A DNA stretch of 64,000 nt from contig CATOSZ010000006.1 of NCBI GenBank assembly GCA_951812805.1, positions 1 through 64,000 on the forward strand, written 5' to 3'. The translations under genes were made by a program, and so were the position numbers. Origin of the DNA: an uncultured Alphaproteobacteria bacterium. GTDB taxonomy: Bacteria; Pseudomonadota; Alphaproteobacteria; GCA-2731375. How positions within the stretch are numbered: position 1 is the first letter of the stretch; every line of letters starts with the position of its first letter. The notes below the pieces were generated by a model that saw only the letters and a list, made by a program, of their open reading frames with translations, was not told where the DNA came from and made no database searches. Of this stretch, positions 14,056-51,222 are shown piece by piece.

Positions 14056-15599
14056 CAGCCTGTCGGACTCGGGCATGCAAGGATTGGTAAGATTGGCTTG
14101 GCGGGCGTCGATGTCATGGATTTACCCCCATGAAGTTGCGAACGCGGGTTGGCCCGCCCGTTCAGGCGTGGCTGAGGACGAACATCCGCTTGATGTTCCA
14201 GGAGAGCGTGGCCAAGGTCCATTCCCCCTTCGCCTTGTCGAGGCCGCGCAGGCTGAACTGACGCAAGCCCATCACCGATTTGATGATGCCGAACACCGGC
14301 TCCGGCGTCTGCTTGCGAAGCGCGTAGAGCGCCCGGCCCTCGGGTGTGGCCAGGCGATGGCACATCGCCTCGAGCGGCGTCGGATCCTCGGGCGCTGGCG
14401 GCGCCTCGGCGAAGCGGTCCCGCCAGGAAAGATGGTGGTGCTCCCGGCCGAGCGCGATCAGCGGCGCGATCTCCGCTTCCCCGCAGGCCTCGACGTTGGC
14501 CTGGCTGAAGTAGCCGCTGTCCGCCAACAGGGTCTCGACCTCGCCAAGCCCGTCCGGCAGGCCGGCGAGTGCTTCGAGCGTCGGTTCGATCTGCTGCTTG
14601 TCGTTCGCCGCCTGCACCACGTCGGCGCTGACCACCAGCAGGCTGCCGGCGGCCACCGCAGCCTGGGCGTTGTAGCACTGCTCGAAGCCGCCGCCGGCCA
14701 CCGGCATGATGCGCGAGTCCGGGTCCGTCAGGTTGACCTGGTCCTTCGCCCGTGGCCCCGGCTCCGGCGGCTTCGGTGGCCGCCCGCCCGGCTTGCGGCC
14801 GGTCCGCGTTTCCTTCGCCTCGCGGGCTGCCAGCTTCTCTTCGTACTCCGCCTGCTCCCGCGCATGACGCTCGGCCGCCCGCGCCTCGATCTCCGCCTTC
14901 GCCGCGGCGATCGCCGCCAGCCGGTCCTCGCGCCGTGCCAGCTCCTCCGGCACGCTCATGCCGTCGGGAACCTCGGACCGGTCCGCCGCTTCCGCCAACG
15001 CCATCAACTCCGCCACCTCGGCCCGCAGCCGGGCTTCGATCTCGCCCGCACGCTGCCACGACAGGGCGCTGTGCCGGCTCGCGTCGGCATGGATCTTCGT
15101 CCCGTCCAGCGCCACCGTGCCCAGTTGCAGCATGCCGGCCTGCCGCGCCAGCAGCAGAACCTGCACGAACAGCCCCTCGATCAGCGGCAGGAAGCGACGG
15201 CGGAACGTGGCGATCGTGTCGTGGTCGGGGTGGTCGTTTGCCGCGATGAAGCGGAAGGCCACCGAATCATAGCTCGCCCGCTCCAGCTTCCGGCTGGAAT
15301 GCACCCCCGTCGCGTAGCCGTAGATCAGCAGGCCCAGCAGGACGCTCGGGTGATGCGCCGCCGAGCCCGAACCACGATAGGCCTTCACGAACGCAGAGAG
15401 ATCCAGCTGCTCCAGCACATCGACCACGAAGCGCGCCAGATGACGATCAGGCAGCCATTCGTCCACCGAAGGCGGCAGAAGATAGCTGGTCTCCCGGTCA
15501 ACCTGTCGAAAGTTGCTCATCACAAAATCACCGCGCAGGAGAGAATCAGACCGTGACAGTGAATCTCATCTCGAAACTCGGCTCAAGTCCGACAGGCTG
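14056..15599 (-). mobile_element. IS1182-family insertion sequence, copy 1
   Basis: A 1544-bp element with terminal inverted repeats CAGCCTGTCGGACT (14 bp perfect, 17 of 19 overall). It is flanked on both sides by CTAG (14052-14055 and 15600-15603), a duplicated 4-bp palindromic target. It carries one transposase gene on the minus strand. The same element is at 19902-21445 and 39277-40820 in the same orientation. It interrupts a lipoprotein gene. Confidence 0.93.
14162..15520 (-). CDS. IS1182-family transposase (copy 1)
   Basis: A 452-residue DDE transposase. It has an N-terminal DUF772-type domain ([17 protein letters not shown] then [15 protein letters not shown]), a first catalytic Asp at D139 ([12 protein letters not shown]), a long charged helical insert (about 155-250, probably coiled coil), D334 in LLADSGYFS and E407 in [12 protein letters not shown] at 15520 has GGTGA upstream and is preferred to the adjacent GTG codon at 15523. 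Protein is identical in all three copies. Confidence 0.93.
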   Translation of the reverse strand: MSNFRQVDRETSYLLPPSVDEWLPDRHLARFVVDVLEQLDLSAFVKAYRGSGSAAHHPSVLLGLLIYGYATGVHSSRKLERASYDSVAFRFIAANDHPDHDTIATFRRRFLPLIEGLFVQVLLLARQAGMLQLGTVALDGTKIHADASRHSALSWQRAGEIEARLRAEVAELMALAEAADRSEVPDGMSVPEELARREDRLAAIAAAKAEIEARAAERHAREQAEYEEKLAAREAKETRTGRKPGGRPPKPPEPGPRAKDQVNLTDPDSRIMPVAGGGFEQCYNAQAAVAAGSLLVVSADVVQAANDKQQIEPTLEALAGLPDGLGEVETLLADSGYFSQANVEACGEAEIAPLIALGREHHHLSWRDRFAEAPPAPEDPTPLEAMCHRLATPEGRALYALRKQTPEPVFGIIKSVMGLRQFSLRGLDKAKGEWTLATLSWNIKRMFVLSHA

Positions 15600-18623: not shown

Positions 18624-19832
18624 CAGGGGAATCGCATTTGGAATTGCCTTGACGTGCGTGTTTGATCTTGAGGTATTGGCGCGAATCGATTCTACCCGGT
18701 CTTTTCACGGGTGGAGGTTGCGATGGAAGGCTTTCTGGAGTGCTTTGAGGGTCTCGAGGATCCGCGGACTGGCAATGCCGGGCGTCACGATCTGCTGGAG
18801 ATCTTGACGATCGCCCTGTGCACGGTCCTCTCGGGCGGTCAGACGGCGGTCGACATGGCGATCTTCGCGCGTGAAAAGGAGGCGTTCCTGCGGGAATTTC
18901 TCGTACTCGAACATGGCGTGCCGAGCCACGACACCTTCAGCCGGGTGTTCCGGTTGCTGGATCCGGAGGCGTTCGGCGCCTGCTTCCAGCGCTTCATGGC
19001 GCGCTTTTCCGAGACCTGCCAAGGGGTCATTGCGATCGACGGCAAGGTGGTGCGGCGATCCTACGACAAGGCGAGCGGCACGTCGGCGCTGCATATGGTC
19101 TCGGCCTGGGGCTGTGATCAGCGGCTGGTGTTGGGGCAAGTCGCCACCGACGCCAAGTCCAACGAGATCACCGCCGTGCCGAAGCTGTTGAAACTATTGA
19201 GCCTCGAGGGGACGATCGTGACCGTGGACGCCCTCAATTGCCAGCGCGCCATCGCCAGCCAGATTATCGAGCAGGGGGGTGACTACGCCCTGGCGTTGAA
19301 GGGCAATCAAGGCACGCTGCATGACGACGTGAGAACCTTCCTCGACGATCCGAAAGCCGAAGCGACCACCACCGACACCACGGTCGATGGCGATCATGGC
19401 CGCATCGAGACCCGTGCCGCTCTCGTCTCCAGCCACGTCGAGTGGCTGCAAGAGCGCCATCATTGGCCGGGCCTGAAGGCGGTCGCCAAAGTCACCCGGA
19501 CCCGCGAGTGCGCGGAGAAGACGTCGAGCGAAACCGCCTACTACCTGCTCAGCCAGCCGCTCGACGCCGAGCGCTTCAATCCCGTTGCCCGGGCGCACTG
19601 GGGGGTCGAAAACCGCCTGCACTGGTGCCTCGATGTCCAAATGAACGAAGACCAAGACAGAACCCGCAAGGACAATGGACCGCACAATCTCGCCGTCCTG
19701 CGCCACATGGCGCTCAATGTCATGCGAAAGGATCCACGAAAAGACTCGCTGCGCGCCAAGTTCAAAATCGCCGCTTGGAACAACGACTATCTCCTGTCAC
19801 TCCTCGGCAAATTCTGAAATGCGATTGCCCTG
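18624..19832 (+). mobile_element. ISAs1-family insertion sequence, copy B
   Basis: A complete 1209-bp copy with the same 16-bp ends as copy A, flanked by the 10-bp repeat CATGGATACG. It inserted in the gap between the amidotransferase gene and the gene at 21477, only 69 bp from IS1182 copy 2. It lies in the same orientation as copy A and opposite to copy C. Confidence 0.96.
18723..19817 (+). CDS. ISAs1-family transposase (copy B)
   Basis: Identical at protein level to the copy A transposase (364 residues; catalytic D106, D169, E296). GGAGG precedes the ATG by five bases. No frameshift or stop is seen, so it should be active. Confidence 0.94.
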   Translation: MEGFLECFEGLEDPRTGNAGRHDLLEILTIALCTVLSGGQTAVDMAIFAREKEAFLREFLVLEHGVPSHDTFSRVFRLLDPEAFGACFQRFMARFSETCQGVIAIDGKVVRRSYDKASGTSALHMVSAWGCDQRLVLGQVATDAKSNEITAVPKLLKLLSLEGTIVTVDALNCQRAIASQIIEQGGDYALALKGNQGTLHDDVRTFLDDPKAEATTTDTTVDGDHGRIETRAALVSSHVEWLQERHHWPGLKAVAKVTRTRECAEKTSSETAYYLLSQPLDAERFNPVARAHWGVENRLHWCLDVQMNEDQDRTRKDNGPHNLAVLRHMALNVMRKDPRKDSLRAKFKIAAWNNDYLLSLLGKF

Positions 19833-19901: not shown

Positions 19902-21445
19902 CAGCCTGTCGGACTCGGGCATGCAAGGATTGGTAAGATTGGCTTGGCGGGCGTCGATGTCATGGATTTACCCCCATGAAGTTGCGAACGCGGGTTGGCC
20001 CGCCCGTTCAGGCGTGGCTGAGGACGAACATCCGCTTGATGTTCCAGGAGAGCGTGGCCAAGGTCCATTCCCCCTTCGCCTTGTCGAGGCCGCGCAGGCT
20101 GAACTGACGCAAGCCCATCACCGATTTGATGATGCCGAACACCGGCTCCGGCGTCTGCTTGCGAAGCGCGTAGAGCGCCCGGCCCTCGGGTGTGGCCAGG
20201 CGATGGCACATCGCCTCGAGCGGCGTCGGATCCTCGGGCGCTGGCGGCGCCTCGGCGAAGCGGTCCCGCCAGGAAAGATGGTGGTGCTCCCGGCCGAGCG
20301 CGATCAGCGGCGCGATCTCCGCTTCCCCGCAGGCCTCGACGTTGGCCTGGCTGAAGTAGCCGCTGTCCGCCAACAGGGTCTCGACCTCGCCAAGCCCGTC
20401 CGGCAGGCCGGCGAGTGCTTCGAGCGTCGGTTCGATCTGCTGCTTGTCGTTCGCCGCCTGCACCACGTCGGCGCTGACCACCAGCAGGCTGCCGGCGGCC
20501 ACCGCAGCCTGGGCGTTGTAGCACTGCTCGAAGCCGCCGCCGGCCACCGGCATGATGCGCGAGTCCGGGTCCGTCAGGTTGACCTGGTCCTTCGCCCGTG
20601 GCCCCGGCTCCGGCGGCTTCGGTGGCCGCCCGCCCGGCTTGCGGCCGGTCCGCGTTTCCTTCGCCTCGCGGGCTGCCAGCTTCTCTTCGTACTCCGCCTG
20701 CTCCCGCGCATGACGCTCGGCCGCCCGCGCCTCGATCTCCGCCTTCGCCGCGGCGATCGCCGCCAGCCGGTCCTCGCGCCGTGCCAGCTCCTCCGGCACG
20801 CTCATGCCGTCGGGAACCTCGGACCGGTCCGCCGCTTCCGCCAACGCCATCAACTCCGCCACCTCGGCCCGCAGCCGGGCTTCGATCTCGCCCGCACGCT
20901 GCCACGACAGGGCGCTGTGCCGGCTCGCGTCGGCATGGATCTTCGTCCCGTCCAGCGCCACCGTGCCCAGTTGCAGCATGCCGGCCTGCCGCGCCAGCAG
21001 CAGAACCTGCACGAACAGCCCCTCGATCAGCGGCAGGAAGCGACGGCGGAACGTGGCGATCGTGTCGTGGTCGGGGTGGTCGTTTGCCGCGATGAAGCGG
21101 AAGGCCACCGAATCATAGCTCGCCCGCTCCAGCTTCCGGCTGGAATGCACCCCCGTCGCGTAGCCGTAGATCAGCAGGCCCAGCAGGACGCTCGGGTGAT
21201 GCGCCGCCGAGCCCGAACCACGATAGGCCTTCACGAACGCAGAGAGATCCAGCTGCTCCAGCACATCGACCACGAAGCGCGCCAGATGACGATCAGGCAG
21301 CCATTCGTCCACCGAAGGCGGCAGAAGATAGCTGGTCTCCCGGTCAACCTGTCGAAAGTTGCTCATCACAAAATCACCGCGCAGGAGAGAATCAGACCGT
21401 GACAGTGAATCTCATCTCGAAACTCGGCTCAAGTCCGACAGGCTG
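19902..21445 (-). mobile_element. IS1182-family insertion sequence, copy 2
   Basis: A 1544-bp copy flanked by CTAG at 19898-19901 and 21446-21449. Together with ISAs1 copy B it has split the intergenic region upstream of the gene at 21477; the two ISs are separated by only 69 bp of original sequence. It does not interrupt a recognisable gene. It may supply or remove promoter activity for 21477. Confidence 0.94.
20008..21366 (-). CDS. IS1182-family transposase (copy 2)
   Basis: Same 452-residue DDE protein as copy 1, with D139, D334 and E407 and the charged central helical insert. No disruption is seen. Confidence 0.93.
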   Translation of the reverse strand: MSNFRQVDRETSYLLPPSVDEWLPDRHLARFVVDVLEQLDLSAFVKAYRGSGSAAHHPSVLLGLLIYGYATGVHSSRKLERASYDSVAFRFIAANDHPDHDTIATFRRRFLPLIEGLFVQVLLLARQAGMLQLGTVALDGTKIHADASRHSALSWQRAGEIEARLRAEVAELMALAEAADRSEVPDGMSVPEELARREDRLAAIAAAKAEIEARAAERHAREQAEYEEKLAAREAKETRTGRKPGGRPPKPPEPGPRAKDQVNLTDPDSRIMPVAGGGFEQCYNAQAAVAAGSLLVVSADVVQAANDKQQIEPTLEALAGLPDGLGEVETLLADSGYFSQANVEACGEAEIAPLIALGREHHHLSWRDRFAEAPPAPEDPTPLEAMCHRLATPEGRALYALRKQTPEPVFGIIKSVMGLRQFSLRGLDKAKGEWTLATLSWNIKRMFVLSHA

Positions 21446-21476: not shown

Positions 21477-21938
21477 ATGCTGATGATCGCCGACGAAGCC
21501 TTCGACGCCGAACTGCCGTACCGCCAGAGCTGCGACACGGTCGTCGACATCCGTCTCGCCAACACGCTGGACGATTTCATGACCGCGACCGCGTTGATGC
21601 GGATCGTCGCGGCCAACGGCCCCGCACCGCTGGCCTGCGAGGAGATCGGCGGCGCGATGGCGCGATTGAGCCTCGGAGAGTGCGCGCGGGAAAGCGGCGC
21701 GCTGCTGCTGGCGGTGCGCGGCGACGACATCGTCGGCTTCGCGCTGCTGCGTCCCGCCGCCGCCGGGCCGGTCGAACTCGGCTGGATGCACGCCCCGGCG
21801 GACGGCGGCGACGGCGTGGCAGACGCGCTTTGGGTCGCCGCGCTCGGCATGCTGGACGAATGGGCCTGCGATGAGAGCGACATGAGCGCCTTCGTCACCG
21901 AGGCGATCGCGGCACGCAAGGCGAGGCCGCTGAACTAA
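21477..21938 (+). CDS. Small hypothetical protein, possibly GNAT-like
   Basis: A 153-residue cytosolic protein with GGGGAGAA about ten bases before the ATG. The order of elements (LLLAVRGDDIVGFALLRPA, then VELGWMHAPADGGDGVADALWVAAL) resembles the central strands and pyrophosphate-loop region of GNAT N-acetyltransferases, but the canonical R/Q-x-x-G-x-G/A motif is not clear. The GNAT label is therefore tentative. IS1182 copy 2 ends 27 bases before the ribosome site region, so the native promoter may be displaced. Confidence 0.6.
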   Translation: MLMIADEAFDAELPYRQSCDTVVDIRLANTLDDFMTATALMRIVAANGPAPLACEEIGGAMARLSLGECARESGALLLAVRGDDIVGFALLRPAAAGPVELGWMHAPADGGDGVADALWVAALGMLDEWACDESDMSAFVTEAIAARKARPLN

Positions 21939-22001: not shown

Positions 22002-22784
22002 ATGCGGTTTTTCAACGGCGATGAAGTGCCCGTGCGCGAACATGTCCGCAAGGACGGCGCCGGGCGAATCCTGGAGTATTTCGGCTCGCACGAGACCGTC
22101 GATCTCGAACCCCAGGGGTTTCTGGTCGAGAAGCCCTATGCCGGCGCGCGCATCAATCCGCATTTCCACGACATCGACCAGTTCCAGGTCGTGGTCGGCG
22201 GCGGCGGGCGGATCGGCAAGAAGGCGCTGGCGCCGGTGACCGTGCAGTATGCCGACGCCTTTACGCCCTACGGCCCGATCGTCGCCAACGACGAGGGCAT
22301 CCGCTTCTTCACGCTCCGCGCCATGGCGAGCGGCGGGCACTATCACATGCCGGGCTCGCGCCACGAGATGCCGGGTCGCGCCGGGCGCAACATCGCCGGC
22401 GCCCTCGATCCCCATCGTCCCCCGCCGACGGCGGGCGAGGCCGTCTGGGAGGAGCTGTTTCCCACCCAGGACGACGGAGTCTCGGCCCGCGCCGTCCACC
22501 TCGGCGCCGGTTGTGTGTGGGAGGCGCCCGCGCCGGTCGGCCATGGCCAGTTTGCTCTGGTCTGCGCCGGCGCGCTGGTGGACGAAGACGGCCGCCACTT
22601 CGGTCCCGAGGCCCTCTCCCACCAGCCGGCGGGCGGGCCGGCGACGCGACTGCGGGCGGGCGAGGCAGGCGCGATCGTCATGCTGCTCAGCTTCGGCCGG
22701 CCGGGGGAGCGTCCCGGCTCGAACCCAGCGCAGCTGGCGGCCCGCGACCCCGGGGGCTACATCGCGCGGGACGAGAGCACATGA
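22002..22784 (+). CDS. Cupin-fold hypothetical protein
   Basis: A 260-residue protein. The N-terminal part looks like a single cupin barrel: ARINPHFHDIDQFQVVVGGGGRIG (two His in an HFH motif) and PYGPIVANDEGIRFFTLRA. The rest, about 100-240, has no recognised domain but may be a second degenerate barrel (VHLGAGCVWEAPAPVGHGQFALVCAGAL). GGGAGGCG precedes the ATG. Its stop overlaps the Nudix gene ATG (ATGA). Function unknown; small-ligand binding or dioxygenase activity is possible. Confidence 0.68.
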   Translation: MRFFNGDEVPVREHVRKDGAGRILEYFGSHETVDLEPQGFLVEKPYAGARINPHFHDIDQFQVVVGGGGRIGKKALAPVTVQYADAFTPYGPIVANDEGIRFFTLRAMASGGHYHMPGSRHEMPGRAGRNIAGALDPHRPPPTAGEAVWEELFPTQDDGVSARAVHLGAGCVWEAPAPVGHGQFALVCAGALVDEDGRHFGPEALSHQPAGGPATRLRAGEAGAIVMLLSFGRPGERPGSNPAQLAARDPGGYIARDEST

Positions 22785-23251
22785 GCGACGGGCCGGCGCG
22801 CTTCGTCGCGGTGGTGGCCTTGCGATCGACGGAACGGGGCTGGGAAACCCTGCTGGTGCGCCGCGCCAAGGAACCGCTGCTGGATCGCTGGCTCTACGTC
22901 ACCGGCGGCATCGAAGCCGGCGAGGCGGCGGGCGCGAGTGCGGCCCGGGAACTGCGCGAGGAAACCGGCCTGGTAGCGGATCGCCTCTGCTCGAGCAGCA
23001 TCGTCGAGAGCTTCTATTCGAGGTCGATGGATATGGTGTGTTTCGTGCCCGTCTTTGCCGCCTTCGTCGCAAGCGATGCCGAGGCGGTGCTGAACGCCGA
23101 GAACAGCGCCCACAGCTGGCTCGATTTCAAGAGTGCCATCGCGGCGGTACCCGCCCCCAATCAACGCGAGGTGCTGCGCCGGGTCCGCGACGAGCTGCTG
23201 GCGCATCCCATCGACCCCTGGTTCGACCTGGACCCGGCCACGGGAATCTAA
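22781..23251 (+). CDS. Nudix hydrolase
   Basis: A 156-residue cytosolic Nudix enzyme. The full Nudix box G-x5-E-x7-RE-U-x-EE-x-G-U spans residues 42-64 (GGIEAGE followed by RELREETGL). These enzymes hydrolyse nucleoside diphosphates linked to another moiety, using Mg2+. The start overlaps the preceding cupin gene by four bases, so the two are coupled. Substrate unknown. Confidence 0.88.
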   Translation: MSDGPARFVAVVALRSTERGWETLLVRRAKEPLLDRWLYVTGGIEAGEAAGASAARELREETGLVADRLCSSSIVESFYSRSMDMVCFVPVFAAFVASDAEAVLNAENSAHSWLDFKSAIAAVPAPNQREVLRRVRDELLAHPIDPWFDLDPATGI

Positions 23252-23356: not shown

Positions 23357-24538
23357 ATGAGTTCACGCAGCCTGAGGGGCCGGGTGGCCGTCGCCGGGAT
23401 CGGCGAGACCGCCTATTACAAGCATGGCCAGTCGCCCGATCCCGAGTTCAAGCTGGCCCTGATGGCGATCCTGAGGGCGGCCGAGGACGCCGGCATCGAT
23501 CCGCGCGAGATCGACGGTTTCGCGTCATATTCGAACGATCGGAACGAGCCCTCGCGGCTCTCCGCGGCGCTGGGCATCCACGAGCTGCGCTTCGCCAACA
23601 TGCAGTGGGGCGGCGGCGGGGGCGGTGGATCCGGCGCCGTCGGCAACGCGGCGGCGGCGATCGCGACCGGCATGGCGGACTGCGTCGTCGTCTTCCGCGC
23701 GCTGGCGCAGGGCCAGTTCGCCCGCTTCGGCCAGGGCCCGCAGAGCCCGACCATCGACGGCGACAAGGCCTTCGAAGCCCCCTACGGCATGATGAGCCCG
23801 GGCCAGCGCTACGCCATGAAGGTGATGCGCTTCCTGGAGGAGCACGGCATCGCACCCTCGGCGCAACGCGGCATCGCCCTCGCCTCCTATCACCATGCCC
23901 AGGCCAATCCGCGCGCGGTGATGCACGGCCGGCCGCTGGACGCCGAGAAATACGACGATTCCCGCTGGATCGTGGAGCCGTTTCGTCTGTTCGACTGCTG
24001 CATGGAGAACGACGGTGCCGCCGCGCTGATCCTGGTCTCGGCCGAACGGGCCCGCGACCTGCCGCACAAGCCCTGCTACCTGCTGAGCGCCGCGGCCGGC
24101 TCCGAGCACCGCTGCGCGGCGCCGAGCCACAACGCCCCGACCTACGCCTCGTCCAGTTTCACCACGGTTGCCCCCCACCTCTACCGCATGGCGGGTCTTT
24201 CGCCGGGCGATGTCGACGTGGTGCAGTCCTACGAGAATTTCACCGGCGGCGTGCTGGTGAGCCTGGTCGAGCACGGCTTCTTCGAACCGGAGGCGGCGGC
24301 GGAGTTCCTGACCAAGGAGAACCTCGTCGCGCCCACCGGCAAGCTGCCGCTGAACACCTCCGGCGGCAACCTGGCGGAATGCTACATGCACGGCCTGGAG
24401 TTGCAGCTGGAGGCGATCCGCCAGATCCGCGGCGCCTCGACCTCGCAGGTGCCGGACGCTGAGGTCTCGATGGTCTGTTCCGGGCCGCTGGTGACGCCGG
24501 TGAGCTCGATGATCCTGGGTGGGGAGGCGACGCTGTGA
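23357..24538 (+). CDS. Thiolase-fold acyl-CoA lyase (lipid-transfer-protein/Ltp2-like), pair 1
   Basis: A 393-residue thiolase-superfamily protein. The fold is clear (RVAVAGIGETAYYK, AIATGMADCVVVF, C-terminal LNTSGGNLAECYMHG). The nucleophilic Cys of true thiolases, expected after the first Gly-rich strand, is replaced by WGGGGGGGSGAVGNAA, while a VQSYENFTGG motif supplies a Tyr. This resembles lipid-transfer/Ltp2-type proteins, which with a DUF35 partner cleave side-chain C-C bonds retro-aldol fashion. It overlaps the DUF35 gene as GTGA. An amidohydrolase gene follows. Activity on acyl-CoA is inferred from family and partner. Confidence 0.83.
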   Translation: MSSRSLRGRVAVAGIGETAYYKHGQSPDPEFKLALMAILRAAEDAGIDPREIDGFASYSNDRNEPSRLSAALGIHELRFANMQWGGGGGGGSGAVGNAAAAIATGMADCVVVFRALAQGQFARFGQGPQSPTIDGDKAFEAPYGMMSPGQRYAMKVMRFLEEHGIAPSAQRGIALASYHHAQANPRAVMHGRPLDAEKYDDSRWIVEPFRLFDCCMENDGAAALILVSAERARDLPHKPCYLLSAAAGSEHRCAAPSHNAPTYASSSFTTVAPHLYRMAGLSPGDVDVVQSYENFTGGVLVSLVEHGFFEPEAAAEFLTKENLVAPTGKLPLNTSGGNLAECYMHGLELQLEAIRQIRGASTSQVPDAEVSMVCSGPLVTPVSSMILGGEATL

Positions 24539-24984
24539 GTGGGTATCTGCCGGACGGCCTGCCGATCCCCGTGGCCGAGAACGACGGCCTCTCCGCGCCT
24601 TATTGGCAGGGACTGCGCGAGGAGGTGATCCGGGTGCAGAAATGCGGCGGCTGCGGCGTGCTGCAGTTCGGGCCGGAATGGATCTGCCACCGCTGCCATT
24701 CCTTCGATCTCGGCTGGACCGAGGTCGCGGGCAAGGGCCGGATCTACAGCTGGGAACGCTCGCACCACCCGGTTCACCCGGCACTCCGCGCGCACGGCCC
24801 CTATATCGTCGTGCTGGTCGAGCTGGAGGGCACCGGCGGCCTCCGCATGATCGGCAATCTGCTGGGTGATCCCGCGCAGGACGTGAAGGTCGGTGCCGCC
24901 GTCGAAGCGGTCTTCGAGCACCACGAAGCGGCCGAGCCGAAGTATAGTCTGTTGCAATGGACGTATGTGGAGACATCCCCATGA
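24535..24984 (+). CDS. DUF35 OB-fold zinc-ribbon protein, pair 1
   Basis: A 149-residue partner protein starting at GTG inside the stop of the thiolase-like gene. The rubredoxin-like zinc ribbon has cysteines at 37, 40, 51 and 54 (CGGCG, ICHRCH), followed by the acyl-CoA-binding OB-fold (GKGRIYSWERSHHPVHPAL, then PYIVVLVELEG). DUF35 proteins bind acyl-CoA and complete the active site of thiolase-fold partners. The next gene starts at ATGA on its stop, so three genes are coupled. Confidence 0.88.
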   Translation: MSGYLPDGLPIPVAENDGLSAPYWQGLREEVIRVQKCGGCGVLQFGPEWICHRCHSFDLGWTEVAGKGRIYSWERSHHPVHPALRAHGPYIVVLVELEGTGGLRMIGNLLGDPAQDVKVGAAVEAVFEHHEAAEPKYSLLQWTYVETSP

Positions 24985-26186
24985 ACGAGCTATCGATCAA
25001 CACCCCGAACCTCTGGCGCACGGAAACCCCCGGCAACAACGACTGGGAAGGGTCGGCCCGGCCCGACGCGGCCAACAAATATTTCATGGTGTCGACGGAC
25101 TGCCACGCGAACGAGCCGGCCGACCTCTGGGCCAAGCGGATCGAGCCGGAATATCGCGACCGCATCCCCCGGGTCGAGGTGGACGAGAACGGCGTGCAAT
25201 GGCGCGTGACCGAGGGCTACCGGCCCGACCGCATCCGCATCCAGAGCTTCGAGGGCGAGGACAAGCGGCGCGCCGAGGCCGGCGCCGACATCCCCAAGCG
25301 GGCCGACGACCTGGCCGCCGACGGTATCGACATCGAGATTATCTTCCCCAACAAGGGCCTCGCCATGTGGGCGACGCCGGACGCGGTCTTCGCCAACGCC
25401 ATGTGCCGGGTGTGGAACGACTGGGCGGCGGAAACCTACGACGGGCGCGACATGATGGTACCCGTCGCGGCGATCGCCACCGGCGACCTCGAGGGCGCGA
25501 TGGCGGAGATCGAGCGGACCGCCAAGCTGGGCTTCTCCATCCTCACACTGCCCTGCAAGCCCGTGTGGGGCGGCCACGAGGTCGAGCATGTGAACTACAA
25601 CCTGCCGCATTTCGATCCCATGTGGGCGCTGGTCGAGGAGGTCGACATGACCTTGACCTTCCACGTCTCGACGGGTCGCGACCCCCGCGCCAGCCGCGGC
25701 AACGGCGGCGCGATCATCAATTACGTCACCCATTCCCTCTCGCCGACGATCGAGCCGGTGGCGAACCTCTGCGCCTCCGGCGTGCTGGAACGCTTCCCCA
25801 AGCTGCGCTTCGCCACCGTCGAGGCCGGCATCGGCTGGGTTCCCTGGCTGCTGGACGCGATGGACGAGGCCTGCCGCAAGCATCACATGTGGGCACGGCC
25901 GGTATTGCAGGGCCTGCCGAGCGACTATTTCCGCGCCCACGGCGGCGCCACCTTCCAGGAAGACCCGGCGGGCCTGGCCTTGGCCGAACGCTGGAACCTG
26001 ATCGACAACTTCATGTGGGCGAACGACTATCCCCACCACGAGGGCACCTGGCCCCATTCGGCCGAGGCGATCGAGCGCACCATGGGCGGCCTCGACCATG
26101 TTCAGCGGGCGAAGATCCTGGGCCTGAACGCGGCTCGGCTCTTCAAGCTGGATGTGCCGGCGGGCAAGCAGGTGGCGTCGTCGTAG
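24981..26186 (+). CDS. Metal-dependent amidohydrolase (amidohydrolase_2, TIM barrel)
   Basis: A 401-residue enzyme of the PF04909 family (relatives of ACMSD and resorcylate decarboxylases). Motifs are STDCHANEPADLW near the N-terminus (D-x-H in place of the usual D-x-H-x-H region), LTFHVSTGRD with a metal His, and NFMWANDYPHHEGTWPHS with the conserved Asp-x-x-x-His ending. Members hydrolyse or decarboxylate small acids. The ATG at 24981 overlaps the DUF35 stop, preferred over an in-frame ATG at 24957. Its last 44 bp overlap the convergent LysR gene. Confidence 0.83.
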   Translation: MNELSINTPNLWRTETPGNNDWEGSARPDAANKYFMVSTDCHANEPADLWAKRIEPEYRDRIPRVEVDENGVQWRVTEGYRPDRIRIQSFEGEDKRRAEAGADIPKRADDLAADGIDIEIIFPNKGLAMWATPDAVFANAMCRVWNDWAAETYDGRDMMVPVAAIATGDLEGAMAEIERTAKLGFSILTLPCKPVWGGHEVEHVNYNLPHFDPMWALVEEVDMTLTFHVSTGRDPRASRGNGGAIINYVTHSLSPTIEPVANLCASGVLERFPKLRFATVEAGIGWVPWLLDAMDEACRKHHMWARPVLQGLPSDYFRAHGGATFQEDPAGLALAERWNLIDNFMWANDYPHHEGTWPHSAEAIERTMGGLDHVQRAKILGLNAARLFKLDVPAGKQVASS

Positions 26187-27099
26187 CCGACGGCTGCCGG
26201 GCGGCCGCGTCCATCTCGGCGAATTCCGCCTGGATCCAGGTGCGGAATGCCCGGATCGCCGGCTCGTCCCAGCGTCGTTCGGCGCAGAAGAAGTAATAGC
26301 CGTTGTCGACCGGAACGCTGTCCGGGAACAGGTCGACGAGGTCGCCGCGTTGCAACTCCGGCGTCACCAACAGCCGGTCCATGATGACGATGCCGAGGCC
26401 TTCGATGGCGGCGCGGATCGCCAACTCGCCGCTCTCGAAACTTGGGCCCTCGGCGCTGCCGCCCCCCTCCGGAACGCCGTTCGCAGCGAACCAGTTCGGC
26501 CAATCGGTGCCGCAGGCGGCGATCCGCAGCAGCGTCTCGCCAGAGAGCGCCTCGGGCCGCAAGGCCGTATTGCGGCCCCGCAGCAGCGACGGTGCGCAGA
26601 GCGGCGTCAGCGCCTCCCCTTTAACGCGAACCGCTTTGATACCGGCCGGCCAGCAGGGCACGTGAAAGGTCGCGACCCCGCAATCGTGGGTGCGCTCGTC
26701 CAATTCGACGTCGGCGGACAGCAGCAGCGCGACGGACAGGGAAATGTCCGGCCAGGCTTCGGCAAAATGCGGCAGGCGGGGCACGATCGAGCGCCCGGCG
26801 AGGGTCGGAGAGGCCGCGACATGCAGCCGGCTGGCACGGCCCGGCAGGCCGGCGACCGCCTGCCGGATGCCTTCGAAGGCCTCGGCGACGCCCGGCAGCA
26901 GGGAGCGCGCCGCGGGCGTCGGCCGCAGCCCGTGCGGCAGGCGTTCGAACAGCGCCACACCGAGATGGGCTTCCAGCAACTTCACGTGACGGCTGACGGC
27001 ACCCGGCGACACGTTCAGTTCCGCCCCGGCCCGCGCGAAACCGCCGAGACGCGCGGCGGCCTCGAAGGCCCGCAAGGCATTGAGGGGCGGCAGACGCAT
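26143..27099 (-). CDS. LysR-family transcriptional regulator (GcvA-like)
   Basis: A 318-residue regulator. The winged helix-turn-helix lies at residues 1-60 (LNALRAFEAAARLGGFARAGAELNVSPGAVSRHVK), followed by a two-lobed ligand domain with HVAASPTLAGRSIVP and a late GLGIVIMDRLLVTPEL stretch as in GcvA/AmpR types. It is divergent from the DapB-like gene; the 121-bp gap carries a perfect 15-bp inverted repeat. LysR proteins often control the divergent operon, so the DapB-like/Dabb pair is the likely target. The C-terminal Pro/Ala tail overlaps the amidohydrolase gene end. Confidence 0.9.
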   Translation of the reverse strand: MRLPPLNALRAFEAAARLGGFARAGAELNVSPGAVSRHVKLLEAHLGVALFERLPHGLRPTPAARSLLPGVAEAFEGIRQAVAGLPGRASRLHVAASPTLAGRSIVPRLPHFAEAWPDISLSVALLLSADVELDERTHDCGVATFHVPCWPAGIKAVRVKGEALTPLCAPSLLRGRNTALRPEALSGETLLRIAACGTDWPNWFAANGVPEGGGSAEGPSFESGELAIRAAIEGLGIVIMDRLLVTPELQRGDLVDLFPDSVPVDNGYYFFCAERRWDEPAIRAFRTWIQAEFAEMDAAARQPSATTTPPACPPAHPA

Positions 27100-27220: not shown

Positions 27221-28264
27221 ATGACGGAGCCCGCGCCACGGACACTGCTGGTATTCGGCCTCGGCAACGTCGGGGGAACCGTGGCCCGGCTGGCGGCGGC
27301 GCGGGGCTGGTCCGTTCACGCCGTCAACCGAGCCGGCGCCAAAGTGGGTCGCGACCTCGGCGATCTGGTGGACGCCCCGGGCCTCGCCGGCCGGCCGGTC
27401 CTGGACATGGCCGAAACGGACCTGGCCGGCCTCGGCGCGGACATTGCCCTCGTCGCCACGCACGATCGGTTGGCCGAAACGCTGCCCCATCACCGCCGCC
27501 TGCTGGAGGCCGGCCTCGATGTCGTCTGCGTCGGCGCCGAAAGCTCGTACCCCGCCGACGTCGACCCGGGCGCCGCGCGCGAAATCGATGCCATGGCACG
27601 CGGCAACGGCGTCACCTTTACCGGTTGCGGCCTGTGGGACGCTTATCGGATCTGGACCCTGAAGACCCTGGCCGGACCCTGTACCGGGATCGATGCCATC
27701 CACCATCGAAGCGTCACCGACGTCAACCGCTTCGGGCCGGAGGTCGTTCGCATCGCCCGCGTCGGCGAGGACCCCGCCGATCTCGCCGCCGACGGCGGTG
27801 GGGAGCGATCGATCTATCGCGTCTTTCTCGTCCAGGTGACGGCATCCCTGGGCTTGACCGTCACCGGCGTCGAAGAACGTCAGGAGCCGGTGATCCTCGA
27901 CGCGCCCGCCGCCTGCGCGACGCTCGGCGGGGAGGTGGCGGCGGGCCGATGCGCGGGCCTGCGCACCGTGATCGAGGTCGCCACCGCCGAAGGCGTGGGC
28001 GCGCGCGCCGAGATCGAACTGCGCCTCACGCTTCCGGGCGAAGGGGAATGGATGAGCTGGCGGATCGACGGGGCGCCGCCGGCCGAACTGCGCCTCTCGG
28101 GTCTGGATACCGGCCATGCCACCGCGTCCAGCGTCGTCAATCGCCTGCCCGACGTGCTGGCCGCACCCGCGGGCCTCGTCACCTGCGACACGCTCGCGCC
28201 CATGCGTTTCATCCCCGACCCCGGCGCCGCGGCACCGGTCGGAAACAAAAGAGACGCCCGATGA
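27221..28264 (+). CDS. DapB-like NAD(P)-dependent oxidoreductase (2,4-diaminopentanoate dehydrogenase-like)
   Basis: A 347-residue Rossmann-fold enzyme. The nucleotide motif VFGLGNVGGTVARLA is at the N-terminus. HDRLAETLPHHRRLLEAGLDVVCVGAE and the C-terminal TGHATASSVVNRLPDVLAAPAGLVT match the dihydrodipicolinate-reductase-related family that includes 2,4-diaminopentanoate dehydrogenase. It would oxidise or reduce a small amino compound. ATG 27221 has GGGAGG ten bases upstream; an in-frame ATG at 27188 lies inside the palindrome loop and lacks a ribosome site. The stop overlaps the Dabb gene start (ATGA). Substrate unproven. Confidence 0.78.
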   Translation: MTEPAPRTLLVFGLGNVGGTVARLAAARGWSVHAVNRAGAKVGRDLGDLVDAPGLAGRPVLDMAETDLAGLGADIALVATHDRLAETLPHHRRLLEAGLDVVCVGAESSYPADVDPGAAREIDAMARGNGVTFTGCGLWDAYRIWTLKTLAGPCTGIDAIHHRSVTDVNRFGPEVVRIARVGEDPADLAADGGGERSIYRVFLVQVTASLGLTVTGVEERQEPVILDAPAACATLGGEVAAGRCAGLRTVIEVATAEGVGARAEIELRLTLPGEGEWMSWRIDGAPPAELRLSGLDTGHATASSVVNRLPDVLAAPAGLVTCDTLAPMRFIPDPGAAAPVGNKRDAR

Positions 28265-28560
28265 TCCACCGCATCGTCCTGATGAAGCTGAACGCCCGCG
28301 CGGATGACGACGTGATCGACCGCATGCAGACCTATGTCGGCCGGATCCGCGAGGAGGTCGCCGGCACCCGCACCTATCACATGGCGCCGAACGAGGGGGC
28401 CGGCGACGGTGATTTCAACTGGGTTCTGACGTCCTCGTTCGACAACGAAGACGACATGAACGCCTACCGAGTGGCACCGCTGCACCAGGCCTTCGTCGCC
28501 TATTGCGATCCCTATACCGACGACTTTCTGGCCGCCTACTACCGCGCGCCGGAGGCCTGA
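28261..28560 (+). CDS. Dabb (stress-responsive alpha/beta-barrel) domain protein
   Basis: A 99-residue ferredoxin-like alpha/beta barrel. Family marks are the N-terminal strand MIHRIVLMKLN and the later DFNWVLTSSFDNEDDMNAYRVAPLHQAFVAY. Dabb proteins are dimers of varied roles, including small-ligand enzymes. It is coupled to the DapB-like gene by a 4-bp overlap and overlaps the convergent hydrolase gene by 22 bp. It probably supports the same pathway; exact role unknown. Confidence 0.85.
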   Translation: MIHRIVLMKLNARADDDVIDRMQTYVGRIREEVAGTRTYHMAPNEGAGDGDFNWVLTSSFDNEDDMNAYRVAPLHQAFVAYCDPYTDDFLAAYYRAPEA

Positions 28561-29351
28561 GCCGACGCCACATCCACCAGGAACTTGCCCACCAGCGCGT
28601 TGACCGCCGCCGGGCGTTCCCAGGCCGGGAAGCCGCCGGCGGCCGGGATGACCGCGCGCCGCGCTTGCGGCCAGAGCGATGCCAGACGATCGGACGTGGC
28701 GTGGAAGTCGGGGACGTCGTCTTCGCCGTTGTAGAACAGGATCGTCGGTGCCTGGCCGGTGAAACGGTCTTCGAGCGGGGCGATCGGCCAGGGGGTCAGC
28801 GGGCTCGTCCAGTTGGCGCCGGCGAAACCCTCGAGCATCTCGCGTTGCCCGGCCGCGCGGCAGGCGACGGGATCCGCGCGCATCGTGGCGAACCAGGGCG
28901 AGTCCTCGAACCAGACCCGGCGGGCTTCCGCCATGCCGGCAGTGCGGGCGATCTCGCGCACCCGGGCCAACGCCGCATCGACGCTCGCCATGGCCCGGCC
29001 GGGCGGCACCGGGCCTTCCAGGATCAGCGAACGGAAATGCTCCGGCGCGTTCGCCGCCAGGATCATCGCCAGCGCGGTGCCGGTATGGGTGCCCCAGTAA
29101 TGACAGGGCGTGGCGCCGGCGGCGGTGATCGCGGCGGCGACATGGCCCGCCATGTCGAGATGGCCGTAGGGGCCCGGAATGTCGGCCGAGAGGCCGTGGC
29201 CCGGCAGGTCGATCAGCAGCAGGCGAAAGTCGCCGGCGAAGGCCTCGACCTGGGCGGAGAACACCCGGTGGTCCTGCGCCATGCCGTGCACCATGACCAG
29301 CCAGGGCGCGTCCGGCCCCGCCCGCTCGTGGGCGACGGCGCCGGCGGTCAC
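28539..29351 (-). CDS. Alpha/beta-hydrolase-fold protein with degenerate catalytic triad
   Basis: A 270-residue alpha/beta hydrolase fold protein. Oxyanion region VMVHGMAQDHRVFSAQ and LLIDLPGHGLS are typical. The nucleophile elbow, normally G-x-S-x-G, reads WGTHTG with His at 89. The C-terminal catalytic His, expected in GH-x-P-x-W-E, is replaced by GGFPAWE (G239-G240). The acid strand GEDDVPDF is kept. Activity as a standard esterase is therefore doubtful. It is downstream of, and overlaps by four bases, the ureohydrolase gene. Role unknown. Confidence 0.82.
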   Translation of the reverse strand: MTAGAVAHERAGPDAPWLVMVHGMAQDHRVFSAQVEAFAGDFRLLLIDLPGHGLSADIPGPYGHLDMAGHVAAAITAAGATPCHYWGTHTGTALAMILAANAPEHFRSLILEGPVPPGRAMASVDAALARVREIARTAGMAEARRVWFEDSPWFATMRADPVACRAAGQREMLEGFAGANWTSPLTPWPIAPLEDRFTGQAPTILFYNGEDDVPDFHATSDRLASLWPQARRAVIPAAGGFPAWERPAAVNALVGKFLVDVASAQASGAR

Positions 29352-30388
29352 GACCCGCCCCGCACCATCAGGCAGAGGATCTCGAACAGCATCTGGCCGC
29401 CGACCTGGGCGGTGTTGGTGGTGGCATCGTATTCCGGTGCCACCTCGACCACGTCGCCGCCGACGATGTCGAGGCCCGTCAGGCCCTGAAACAGCATCTG
29501 CACCTCGCGCGGGCTGAGGCCGCCGACCTCCGGCGTGCCGGTGCCGGGCGTATAGGCCGGGTCGATGCCGTCGACGTCGAGGGAGACGTAGCAGGCGCCA
29601 TCGCCGATCACCTCGCGGGTCCGTGCGATCACCGCGTCGACGCCCATGCGGTGGAATTCCTCGGCGTGGATGACGGTCATGCCGCTCTCGTAGGAGAATT
29701 CCCAGAGGTATTCGGCGCTGCCGCGAATGCCGATCTGGATCGTGCGTTCGGGGTCGAGGGCGCCGGACAGCACCGCGTGACGGAACGGGCCGCCGTGGTG
29801 GAACTTGGTGTCCTCGAACTGGCCGCCGGTATCGCAGTGCGCATCGATATGGATCATGCCCACGGGGCGTTCCCGGCCGAGCGCGTTCAGGATCGGATAG
29901 CTGATCGAATGGTCGCCGCCGACCGACAGCGGTCGGACCCCCGCCGCCGCGATGCGGTCGAAGAAGGCCTCGATGTCTTCCAGGCTGCGATCGAGGCTGT
30001 AGCGGCTGTGCAGCGGCACGTCGCCGATGTCGGCGATGCGCGCTTCGGCCCGGGGCGCGATGCGATGGACGTGATGGAAGGGGCCGATCCGCTCCATCGT
30101 GCGGACGGCGCGCGGGCCGAAGCGGGCGCCCGGGCGGTTGGTGACGCCGAGGTCCATCGGCACGCCGACCAGGGCGATGTCGATTTCGCCGAAGTCCGCG
30201 CCCTCGGCCGGTGCCGGACGGTAGGGGGCGTCCAGCAGGGTGGGGAGACCGGAATAGGGGAAGACCCGCTTGCCGTCGGGGTCGAAGACGTCCTGGGCCG
30301 CCTTGGCGAAGGCCGGGTCGTCGATCTGGTCGGCGCTCGCCTCGCCATACTTCTCGCGCAAGCGCGCCAGCTTGTCCTCGGCCACCAT
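29348..30388 (-). CDS. Agmatinase/guanidinobutyrase-like ureohydrolase
   Basis: A 346-residue arginase/agmatinase-family enzyme that hydrolyses a guanidino compound to urea and an amine with two Mn2+ ions. All metal motifs are present: GGDHSISYP, HIDAHCDTGG and SLDVDGIDPAYTPGTGTPE. AGGAGG lies eight bases before ATG 30388, which favours it over upstream codons. The usual N-terminal motif GVPMDLGVTNRPGARFGPRAVR is present. It heads a two-gene operon with the odd alpha/beta-hydrolase. Agmatine, guanidinobutyrate or a related compound could be the substrate. Confidence 0.88.
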   Translation of the reverse strand: MVAEDKLARLREKYGEASADQIDDPAFAKAAQDVFDPDGKRVFPYSGLPTLLDAPYRPAPAEGADFGEIDIALVGVPMDLGVTNRPGARFGPRAVRTMERIGPFHHVHRIAPRAEARIADIGDVPLHSRYSLDRSLEDIEAFFDRIAAAGVRPLSVGGDHSISYPILNALGRERPVGMIHIDAHCDTGGQFEDTKFHHGGPFRHAVLSGALDPERTIQIGIRGSAEYLWEFSYESGMTVIHAEEFHRMGVDAVIARTREVIGDGACYVSLDVDGIDPAYTPGTGTPEVGGLSPREVQMLFQGLTGLDIVGGDVVEVAPEYDATTNTAQVGGQMLFEILCLMVRGGS

Positions 30389-39057: not shown

Positions 39058-39276
39058 AAGCTTTGATAGACCAACTGATCGCCCTGAGGCTGTATGGAAT
39101 GGCGGCTTGCGCCGAAGCTTTGCTGGCCGCGCGCAAGCCGCCAAGTCTGACCACTGCGATAAAGCAACTGATCGACGCCGAGACTGTAGAGCGCCGGGTG
39201 CGCTCTATCCAGCACCAAATGCGGGCCTCGAAGTTCCCCCACCATAAGGACTTCGCCACTTTCGATTACGGCCTAG

Positions 39277-40820: not shown

Positions 40821-41346
40821 CTAGCCGCCGTCACCCAAGCGCAAATCGACCCCTTCTGCTCAGGGCAGTTCACCCAGGAGGCCCACAACCTCATTCTGGT
40901 GGGCGGAACCGGTACGGGCAAAACCCACATCGCCATTGCTCTGGGGACGCTGTTGATCAATCAGGGAAAGAAGGTCCGTTTCTTCAACGCCGTCGATCTG
41001 ATCAATGCGCTGATCAAGGAACAGGCCGAAGGCAACGCCGGCAAGATCATCCGGCAACTGACGGCCATGGATTGCGTCATCATCGACGAACTGGGCTATA
41101 TCCCATTCCCCAAATCCGGCGGTGCGCTCTTGTTCCACCTGATCAGCAAACTCTATGAGAAGACCAGCGTCATCATCACCACCAATCTGGAGTTCGGGGA
41201 ATGGGTCTCCGTCTTCGGAGATGCAAAAATGACAACCGCGTTGCTGGATCGTGTAACGCATCACTGCGCAATCATCGAAACAGGCAACATGTCTTACCGC
41301 TTCGCACAAAGCAAACAGCGACGACAAAAGTAGCCGCCCTGTAAGC

Positions 41347-49657: not shown

Positions 49658-50047
49658 TCAGGCCGGGGTGAACATCGGGATCGACTGCCCGCCCTCGGAA
49701 TCCTTGAAGGTCACCTTCACCGCCTGGTCGATCGCCACCGCGTCGGGATCGCAGTCGACGATGTTGGTCATCATCGTCACCCCCTCGGCCAGCGTCACAT
49801 AGGCGATGACGAAAGGAATCTCGGAGCGCCGCATCACCGAATAGCTGTAGACCGTGCCGTCGCCGGAGGCCTCGTACCATTCCGTGGCGCTCGACTGGCA
49901 GTGCGGGCAGACGACGCGGGGATAGAAATGCGTCTTGCCGCAGTCGCCGCAGCGCTTCAACAGCAGCTTGCCGTCGTTGGCGCCGTCCCAGTAGGCGCGG
50001 CTCTCGTCGTTGATCGGCGGATCCATGTAGGTCTTTGCGGCGCTCAT
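49658..50047 (-). CDS. DUF35 OB-fold zinc-ribbon protein, pair 2
   Basis: A 129-residue protein with zinc-ribbon cysteines at 33, 36, 47 and 50 (RCGDCG, VCPHCQ) and an OB-fold (SGDGTVYSYSVMRRSEIPFVIAYVTLAEG). It binds acyl-CoA in known family members. Its ATG overlaps the thiolase-like stop as ATGA. It is a paralogue of 24535-24984. Confidence 0.88.
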   Translation of the reverse strand: MSAAKTYMDPPINDESRAYWDGANDGKLLLKRCGDCGKTHFYPRVVCPHCQSSATEWYEASGDGTVYSYSVMRRSEIPFVIAYVTLAEGVTMMTNIVDCDPDAVAIDQAVKVTFKDSEGGQSIPMFTPA

Positions 50048-51222
50048 GCGTCTGCCCTCCCCAGGATGACGGTACTGCTGCCCATGCGGGTGGCGATCGA
50101 GCCGCCGGTGCCGTGCGCCAGCGCCAGGTCGCAATTCGCGACCTGCACGGCCGGATGCGCCTCGCCCCGGACCTGGCGGACCGCCTCCAACACCTTGGTG
50201 AGGCCGCCGCGGTTGCCCGGATGGTTGTTGCACAGGCCGCCGCCGTCGGTGTTGAAGGGCAGCTTGCCCTGGCCGGCGATCAAATTGCCGTCGGAGACGA
50301 AGGCGCCGCCCTCGCCGCGCGGGCAGAAGCCCAGGTCCTCGATCGTCTCGACCACCGTGATGGTGAAGCTGTCGTAGATCGAGGCGTATTTGATGTCGCC
50401 CGGCAGCACGCCCGCCTCCTCGTAGGCCCGCGGGCCTGAAATGGCGCCGCCGGTGTAGGTGATGTCGATGGTGCCGGCGTTCAGGTGCTTCACCGCCTCG
50501 CCATGGCCGAGGATCTTCACCGCCCGGTCGCCGAGCGACTTGGCGACTTCCGGGCTCACCACCACGATGGCCCCGCCGCCATCCGAAATCACACAGCAGT
50601 CGAGCCGGTGCAGCGGGTCCGAGATCATCGGCGAGTTCACGACATCCTCGACCGTCACCACCTTGCGCAGCATCGCATGCTCGTTGTGCTGGGCATGGTG
50701 GGAGGCGGCGACTTTGACCCAGGCGAGCTGTTCGGCGGTGGTGCCGTACTGGTGCCTGTGGCGCATCGCCGCCATCGCATACATGTTGACCACCGTCGGG
50801 CCATAGACCGCCTCGAAGCCGACGTCGGGCGCGTCCGCCGCGTAGACCCGGGGTGCGGTGCCGGTCGCCATGCCTTCGGCCCGCGGCCGGCCGGCGAGCG
50901 TGATCAACGCCACCGAACACTTGCCGAGCGCGATCGCCTCCAGCGCGTGGCCGACGTGAATGACGTAGGAGGACCCGCCGGTATCGGTCGAGTCGACATG
51001 GGTCAGGTTGTTCAGGCCCATGTATTCGATCATGGAGAGCGGGCCGAGGCCCGGCGCGTCGCCGGCGCAGAAATAGCCGTCGACGTCGGCCATGGTAAGG
51101 CCCGCGTCGGCCAGTGCGCCGACCGCGCTTTCGGCGTGGATCTGCGCGAGGGTGATCCCCTCGGCCTTCCGCGTCGGGTGTTCATGGATACCGGCGATAT
51201 ACGCCTTGCCACGCAAGTTCAT
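50044..51222 (-). CDS. Thiolase-fold acyl-CoA lyase (lipid-transfer-protein/Ltp2-like), pair 2
   Basis: A 392-residue thiolase-superfamily protein with AAGGAG eight bases before ATG 51222. The Cys nucleophile site is replaced by STDTGGSSYVIHVGHA; IYDSFTITVVETIEDLGF supplies the Tyr motif, and PFNTDGGGLCNNHPGN matches the C-terminal half. As with pair 1, lack of Cys and the DUF35 partner suggest C-C lyase or acyl-CoA-binding activity, not beta-ketothiolysis. Sequence divergence from pair 1 is large, so substrates probably differ. Confidence 0.84.
   Translation of the reverse strand: MNLRGKAYIAGIHEHPTRKAEGITLAQIHAESAVGALADAGLTMADVDGYFCAGDAPGLGPLSMIEYMGLNNLTHVDSTDTGGSSYVIHVGHALEAIALGKCSVALITLAGRPRAEGMATGTAPRVYAADAPDVGFEAVYGPTVVNMYAMAAMRHRHQYGTTAEQLAWVKVAASHHAQHNEHAMLRKVVTVEDVVNSPMISDPLHRLDCCVISDGGGAIVVVSPEVAKSLGDRAVKILGHGEAVKHLNAGTIDITYTGGAISGPRAYEEAGVLPGDIKYASIYDSFTITVVETIEDLGFCPRGEGGAFVSDGNLIAGQGKLPFNTDGGGLCNNHPGNRGGLTKVLEAVRQVRGEAHPAVQVANCDLALAHGTGGSIATRMGSSTVILGRADA

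Follow-up and report, generated by a model that had tools for sequence, protein, structure and literature searches.

A cysteine-less thiolase-fold/DUF35 gene pair coupled to a putative dinuclear oxygenase gene in an uncultured alphaproteobacterium

Three overlapping genes in an uncultured Alphaproteobacteria bacterium encode a thiolase-fold protein without the thiolase cysteine (P0001), its DUF35 partner (P0002; together, pair 1) and a member of PF04909 (P0003). On balance, we lean towards the view that they form one catabolic module, in which an O2-dependent beta-hydroxylation would be followed by a retro-aldol cleavage. This reading is based on homology, active-site conservation, gene coupling and co-occurrence, from which we infer the metal centre, the hydroxylation site, the order of the steps and the retro-aldol reaction. 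The window, i.e., the whole stretch of DNA analysed, comprises 64,000 nt of contig CATOSZ010000006.1 (GCA_951812805.1).

Gene layout and active sites of the coupled proteins

The first-pass annotation had described two pairs in the window, at 23357-24984 on the forward strand and 49658-51222 on the reverse strand, each made up of a thiolase-fold gene and an overlapping DUF35 gene. Both were recovered at these positions (Table 1). The genes of pair 1 share four bases (24535-24538, GTGA), and the P0002 gene shares another four with that of P0003 (24981-24984, ATGA). Since both joints overlap, three genes are coupled rather than two, which supports the earlier suggestion of a short coupled module. 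The pair 2 genes also overlap via ATGA, and P0001 and P0004 are 30% identical. We compared seven neighbouring genes of pair 1 with 92 loci, 12 of them with flanks no longer than 1.5 kb; none had a counterpart at 40% identity and 60% coverage, and the seven were therefore excluded from the module.

Table 1. Genes and residues of the window discussed in the text.
Feature	Position	Strand	Length and basis
P0001, pair 1 thiolase-fold protein, putative retro-aldolase	23357..24538	+	393 aa, Thiolase_C_1 (Pfam)
P0001 G88 (nucleophile column)	23618-23620	+	alignment
P0001 Y292 of YENF	24230-24232	+	alignment
P0001 Y343 of ECYMHG	24383-24385	+	alignment
P0002, pair 1 DUF35 / ChsH2-type zinc-ribbon and OB-fold protein	24535..24984	+	149 aa, zf-ChsH2 and OB_ChsH2_C (Pfam)
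P0003, PF04909, putative PtmU3-type dinuclear oxygenase (ARO)	24981..26186	+	401 aa
P0004, pair 2 thiolase-fold protein, PRK08142 family	50044..51222	-	392 aa, Thiolase_C_1 (Pfam)
Pair 2 DUF35 / ChsH2-type protein (P0005 minus its first residue)	49658..50047	-	129 aa, zf-ChsH2 and OB_ChsH2_C
Pair 1 neighbour, GNAT	21477-21938		
Pair 1 neighbour, upstream protein	22002-22784		260 aa, no Pfam or NCBIfam match
Pair 1 neighbour, NUDIX	22781-23251		
Pair 1 neighbour, LysR	26143-27099		
Pair 1 neighbour, diaminopentanoate-dehydrogenase-like	27221-28264		
Pair 1 neighbours, two further genes	28539-29351 and 29348-30388		

Absence of the thiolase cysteine, noted for both pairs on first inspection, held up in a joint alignment that included the cysteine thiolase 7yvy, TcLtp2 (6ok1), CtSal (9myr) and 4u4e. 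The nucleophile column holds glycine in both P0001 (G88) and P0004, and in both a tyrosine takes the place of the histidine of HDxF, within the SYENF and YDSF motifs already recognised in pairs 1 and 2, respectively. Aligned in this way, P0001 lacks the marks of a true thiolase, having neither the cysteine nucleophile nor the HDxF and GHP motifs. A conserved nucleophilic cysteine, named at the outset as grounds for refutation, was not found: across 81 rows (the window plus 80 loci), G88-G90, Y292, E293, N294, F295, Y343 and H345 are identical throughout, and W84-G87 are kept in at least 97%. A cysteine occurs at position 92, four residues past G88, in 10 of the 81 rows, and TcLtp2 has one there as well.

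TcLtp2 is the closest solved relative of P0001 (E 1.5e-73), and 6ok1 is also its best Foldseek match (TM 0.84, 37% identity). The AlphaFold2 models of P0001 and P0003 are single chains from shallow alignments of 23 and 21 rows, with mean pLDDT values of 80 and 81. P0001 falls under the cut-off of every NCBIfam model shown, the best being PRK07855 (347 of 469 bits). A tree of 51 rows, built by a quick method with SH-aLRT support only, places the pair 1 rows on one side of a branch (SH-aLRT 100), within a 25-row set that includes TcLtp2 (SH-aLRT 97). Together with the ChsH2(DUF35)-like partner, the match to 6ok1 by sequence and fold agrees with the Ltp2-type lineage first proposed for pair 1. 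The 2-hydroxyacyl-CoA esters suggested as substrates were not upheld, since Ltp2 and Sal enzymes use 3-hydroxyacyl-CoA, with a beta-hydroxyl.

Pair 1 resembles TcLtp2-ChsH2(DUF35) in its thiolase fold, glycine at the nucleophile column, tyrosine base and tyrosine acid, and in a DUF35 partner with a C-x2-C-x10-C-x2-C zinc site; base Y294 and acid Y344 of TcLtp2 align with Y292 and Y343. Pair 1 thus combines the features expected of a retro-aldolase, namely a Cys-less thiolase fold, both tyrosines and DUF35. The motif, however, is YENF in pair 1 and YDHF in TcLtp2, DUF35 has its own gene here but is part of the hydratase in the Ltp2 system, and the coupled gene is the putative oxygenase rather than a dehydrogenase and a hydratase. 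H296 of TcLtp2 is asparagine in P0001 and the aspartate of YDxF is glutamate, so the Ltp2 mechanism is not exactly transferable. Sal-Shy(DUF35) (CtSal, 9myr) shares with pair 1 the Cys-less fold, DUF35 and the tyrosine base, but its acid is Cys304 of YDCY and glutamine stands at the second tyrosine, where pair 1 has asparagine (N294 aligns with Cys304) and tyrosine. The roles of these TcLtp2 tyrosines and of Cys304, and the glycine of CtSal at the cysteine position, are given in the excerpt of PMC12329534 that we used. Pair 1 has no MaoC hydratase fused or coupled through DUF35; because its DUF35 stands alone and no hydratase adjoins it in the window, we did not file it as Ltp2 or Sal itself.

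ChsH2(DUF35) of 6ok1 is the best match of P0002. Its zinc cysteines (C37, C40, C51 and C54, spaced Cys-x2-Cys-x10-Cys-x2-Cys) are kept in all 80 rows, and the DUF35 gene follows the thiolase-fold gene in all 80 loci.

The third gene had been read as a coupled amidohydrolase. The coupling stands; the hydrolase part is doubtful, as every ligand position of dinuclear oxygenases such as PtmU3, AibH2 and DitZ is kept in P0003. P0003 belongs to PF04909 (Amidohydro_2 in Pfam), and its closest solved relative by phmmer is PtmU3 (E 1.7e-61; DitZ 4.8e-29). A 21-row profile search also placed PtmU3 first (3.5e-74), then DitZ and four AROs of Liu/Rittle, and after these the decarboxylase 4icm, another amidohydrolase and AibH2; 4icm ranks among the oxygenases in the phmmer search as well. 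The first Foldseek match is again PtmU3 (TM 0.75 by query, 0.84 by target). The six metal ligands and an extra acidic residue correspond to D40, H42, H228, E281, D349, H352 and E354, all unchanged in the covering rows (57 rows, one with gaps at five positions). AibH2 ligands are listed in the excerpt of PMC7782822 as D25, H27, H211, E265, D337 and H340, and according to the same excerpt the binuclear enzymes alone, within the superfamily, conserve the extra acidic residue (E313 of PtmU3). PtmU3 (6omp) shares all ligand equivalents with P0003, including this glutamate (E313/E354), while DitZ (8uyr) and AibH2 share the ligand positions but have aspartate at the extra one; DitZ, AibH2 and SfbO are related in fold and more distant than PtmU3. 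The N terminus of P0003 and its orthologues is about 30 residues longer than that of PtmU3; unlike PtmU3, these proteins are linked to a thiolase-fold/DUF35 pair, and the function of P0003 is predicted. AibH2 pairs with AibH1 and an electron-transfer chain, which was not seen at pair 1; on reading through the window we noticed no reductase gene next to that of P0003. Excerpts of PMC7782822 and PMC10127204 present PtmU3 as a diiron beta-hydroxylase whose substrate is a diterpenoid-CoA, hydroxylated at C-5 (PMC10127204, excerpt). In the excerpt of PMC10811679, which treats amidohydrolase-related dinuclear oxygenases as AROs, activity with O2 on a substrate is demonstrated for one of four candidates. 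Given its ligand set, P0003 more probably hydroxylates with O2 than acts as a hydrolase.

PF04909 has 23 further loci in this genome, which served as a control; the P0003 profile reached 12 of them. All seven positions are kept in eight of these proteins, one lacks the first aspartate only, and three lack the second-metal set. The genome may therefore hold about nine further oxygenases of this kind, judging from these residues. The nine proteins concerned are L185, L186, L187, L191, L193, L194, L196, L200 and L202; L187 lacks the first aspartate, and only L186 has the PtmU3-type glutamate found in P0003. By the listed genome positions, none of the nine lies less than 50 kb from a Thiolase_C_1 gene.

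Linkage of the aldolase and oxygenase genes

Further support for a functional link comes from gene neighbourhoods, the co-occurrence check proposed at the outset. A P0003 orthologue lies on the same strand and less than 8 kb from the pair in 57 of 80 loci, these being the best 80 of 535 related stretches; they come from 79 assemblies, one of which contains both L061 and L080. In 17 loci the orthologue comes immediately after the pair, in 31 immediately before it (27 strictly, one with a gap, three with an over-long ORF start), and in nine Burkholderiales loci 4.7-7.3 kb downstream, one of them cut by the locus end. Genes were called in the loci with our own codon log-odds caller, which misses some in lower-GC records (e.g., L113, L119, L144 and L146). 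For the 23 loci in which the oxygenase was not found, whole-genome searches recovered a full-length orthologue (52-74% identity) in 20 cases; that of L080 (G064) is the copy beside the second pair, L061, of the same assembly. Counted by genome, the oxygenase is present elsewhere in 19 of the 22 genomes without it near the pair. G078 has a fragment at a contig end, and no close oxygenase was found by whole-genome search in G061 and G077.

The same association was seen in closer relatives and across the class. Among 61 relatives, P0001 reaches 65% identity or more in 11; in 10 of these P0003 does so too, its gene lying at most about 0.5 kb away, and in the remaining genomes neither protein has an orthologue at this level. 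A class-wide sample of 240 genomes contained P0001 orthologues in nine (at least 70% identity) and P0003 orthologues in nine (at least 63%), eight genomes being shared and the two genes adjacent in all eight (Fisher p 3e-13, kinship not corrected). At a looser limit (E 1e-60), 19 of the 240 had P0001, 14 had P0003 and 11 had both. In G265, the ninth genome with P0003, a contig end truncates the P0001 orthologue, and in G131, the P0001 carrier outside the shared eight, there is no oxygenase at the limit of E 1e-60. Because the genome sets share members and common ancestry, they do not count as independent tests.

More divergent sets show comparable arrangements. The oxygenase lies beside thiolase-fold and DUF35 genes in G041 (57%/41%) and beside a thiolase-fold gene in G159 (48%/35%), with DUF35 in between; G262 has the arrangement of G159, by position only. 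Sphingobium pSHV1 carries an oxygenase (42%) and a thiolase-fold gene (33%) with a CoA ligase between them. Since the thiolase-fold proteins of the divergent sets fall in at least two places in the tree, the linkage may have had more than one origin. The genome of L093 has the oxygenase near another, more distant thiolase-fold/DUF35 pair, and a Tardibacter plasmid has only a partial oxygenase-like gene.

Annotated plasmid records contain CoA ligases, CaiB CoA-transferases, tripartite-transporter binding proteins, Rieske oxygenases and nitroreductases near the pair, and no named pathway was found there; in one megaplasmid the stretch carried no annotation. Records from Delftia, Burkholderia plantarii and Variovorax (L152, L153 and L154) have Rieske oxygenase genes close to the pair, as do L115 (by Pfam) and L121 (by clustering); these may be pathway partners, and their presence in betaproteobacterial clusters leaves room for other chemistry. 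A MarR-type regulator gene directly precedes the oxygenase gene in L059 (6326-6796) and L109 (220-696), and its cluster comprises 21 loci.

Proposed reaction and alternative readings

We propose the following reaction. P0003, as a dinuclear-metal oxygenase of the PtmU3 kind, would use O2 to hydroxylate the beta-carbon of a CoA-bound acid, and P0001 bound to P0002 would break the alpha-beta C-C bond of the resulting 3-hydroxyacyl-CoA in a retro-aldol reaction. Y292 would deprotonate the beta-hydroxyl, with departure of a ketone or aldehyde, and Y343 would protonate the acyl-CoA enolate; N294 may fill the oxyanion role of TcLtp2 H296. The substrate may be an acid closed to the dehydrogenation step of normal beta-oxidation, such as one with a quaternary alpha-carbon. 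The substrate of PtmU3 has such a carbon. An acid of this type would explain why an oxygenase replaces the dehydrogenase and hydratase.

Hydratase and dehydrogenase genes near the pair in relatives lend some weight to a different reading, in which the pair is a retro-aldolase fed by a dehydrogenase and a hydratase, as in steroid side-chain pathways, and P0003 oxygenates another position or acts at another step. A hydratase-2 gene lies about 2 kb or closer in at least eight gammaproteobacterial loci (L065 checked by Pfam), where the aldolase may be hydratase-fed and the oxygenase is encoded elsewhere in the genome. In Ferrovibrio L052 the pair is followed by two MaoC genes; L116 and G001 have both MaoC and dehydrogenase pairs near it, and in G265 a dehydrogenase pair lies about 3 kb from the oxygenase gene. 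We nevertheless consider this reading rather unlikely: in the window, Pfam and gene calling found no hydratase or dehydrogenase gene beside pair 1, and the oxygenase immediately adjoins the pair, as it does in 48 of the 80 loci. Four oxygenase-bearing loci (L048, L054, L058 and L061) have MaoC 3-6 kb from the pair, so hydratase and oxygenase are not mutually exclusive. In steroid pathways, hydratases and dehydrogenases of this kind produce 3-hydroxyacyl-CoA, so the aldolase reading gains support from them whichever enzyme is the feeder. The other departures from the proposed module concern single proteins. P0003 could be a conventional mononuclear PF04909 enzyme that hydrolyses or decarboxylates the cleavage product, in keeping with its Pfam name and with matches to 5-carboxyvanillate and related decarboxylases, most of them weaker. 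With PtmU3 first by sequence, profile and fold, with H352 and E354 (the binuclear-only acid, according to the excerpt of PMC7782822) unchanged in the covering rows, and with the ligand set absent from three of the 12 other PF04909 proteins reached by the profile, we regard this as improbable.

We give equally little credence to P0001 as an acyl transferase or decarboxylating thiolase-like protein that works without the cysteine. The thiolase fold does serve several reactions (BbsB, PhlC and the partner of archaeal HMG-CoA synthase), and TbSLP is reported in the excerpt of PMC12329534 to decarboxylate malonyl-CoA weakly, but both catalytic tyrosines of TcLtp2 are invariant here and P0001 groups with TcLtp2. 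That pair 1 is the steroid side-chain aldolase Ltp2 itself seems highly improbable: Ltp2 is the closest characterised enzyme, but at only 37% identity, with PRK07855 at 347 against a cut-off of 469, no adjoining hydratase or dehydrogenase genes in the window, and DUF35 as a separate gene.

A swap of oxygenase for hydratase in Gammaproteobacteria was ruled out, as 20 of the 23 loci lacking the oxygenase belong to genomes with a full-length orthologue elsewhere and four loci carry both genes; the dehydrogenase pair near the oxygenase of G265 also speaks against a clean exchange. A weaker form of this pattern is left for the four genomes that have the pair but no close oxygenase (G001, G061, G077 and G131): three have MaoC less than 5 kb from the pair, two of these with an adjoining dehydrogenase pair as well. 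The exception is G131, for which the predicted feeder was not borne out, neither MaoC nor a dehydrogenase pair lying within about 9 kb of the pair.

Returning to the oxygenase-aldolase module, we suggest tentatively, and with less confidence than for the window itself, that it might represent a widespread proteobacterial "oxygenative retro-aldol" module, a general O2-dependent alternative to the dehydrogenase-hydratase-thiolase route that uses a YENF-type Cys-less aldolase and handles acyl-CoAs not open to dehydrogenation in beta-oxidation. Its components are of known kinds; for the fixed combination of oxygenase and aldolase and for the YENF signature we found no earlier description. Within the CC-licensed literature searched, this holds for amidohydrolase with thiolase and DUF35, for amidohydrolase with Ltp2, monooxygenase and acyl-CoA, and for YENF; the excerpt of PMC10391625 concerns chemical synthesis. 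If the proposal is correct, many genes annotated as "amidohydrolase", "acetyl-CoA acetyltransferase" and "OB-fold protein" would become one testable pathway unit, the young group of dinuclear oxygenases would gain a common partner enzyme, and soil and water bacteria would have a route for degrading branched or cyclic acids. The residues would also provide a sequence rule to separate likely retro-aldolases from thiolases in genomes.

Pair 2 and other genes of the genome

Pair 2 turned out not to be a second copy of pair 1 but to belong to a different branch (PRK08142/4u4e) that lacks the Ltp2 acid tyrosine and has dehydrogenase and MaoC neighbours in four of nine regions of relatives. P0004 passes NCBIfam PRK08142 (683 bits, cut-off 462) and groups with the Sphaerobacter thiolase-like protein 4u4e in the 51-row tree (SH-aLRT 99). 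Pair 2 has YDSF, glycine at the nucleophile column and DUF35 downstream, as a retro-aldolase would, but neither known general acid (Tyr344 or the cysteine of YDC), with NNHPG in the Tyr344 region and serine in YDSF. Of 31 genomes, 16 carry orthologues of pair 2 at E 1e-100 or better. The four regions, among the nine examined (two from one genome), run dehydrogenase, thiolase-fold, DUF35, MaoC and HpcH/CitE-like lyase (Pfam on L171, L172 and L175); a fifth has dehydrogenase domains upstream, and the other four have the pair without these genes. This context suggests that pair 2 is probably an aldolase fed by a dehydrogenase and a hydratase, with an acid residue other than the Ltp2 tyrosine or the Sal cysteine. 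In the window it precedes what we take to be carB and greA.

The Cys-less tyrosine state alone is ordinary in this genome. By alignment, in which the nucleophile column is less certain for the most distant rows, 11 of the 14 Thiolase_C_1 proteins have the tyrosine without a cysteine at that column, one of them (L002) with a cysteine one column further on; L008 and L011 are Cys/HDCF thiolases, and the alignment of L006 does not cover the column. The genome has 11 DUF35 matches. Two YDAF-type thiolase-fold genes on different contigs, L009 and L010 (G000:C2:55125 and G000:C3:1393189), are identical over the compared stretch.

The window region is rich in insertion sequences. A 453-aa transposase-like gene is present in three identical copies (14162-15523, 20008-21369 and, on the reverse strand, 39383-40744), as is one of 368 aa (89-1195, 18711-19817 and 56001-57107). 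The element at 39383-40744 splits an apparent single gene within 39030-41333, which, by our reading, is of the istB type and adjoins a presumed istA-like gene (37636-39057).
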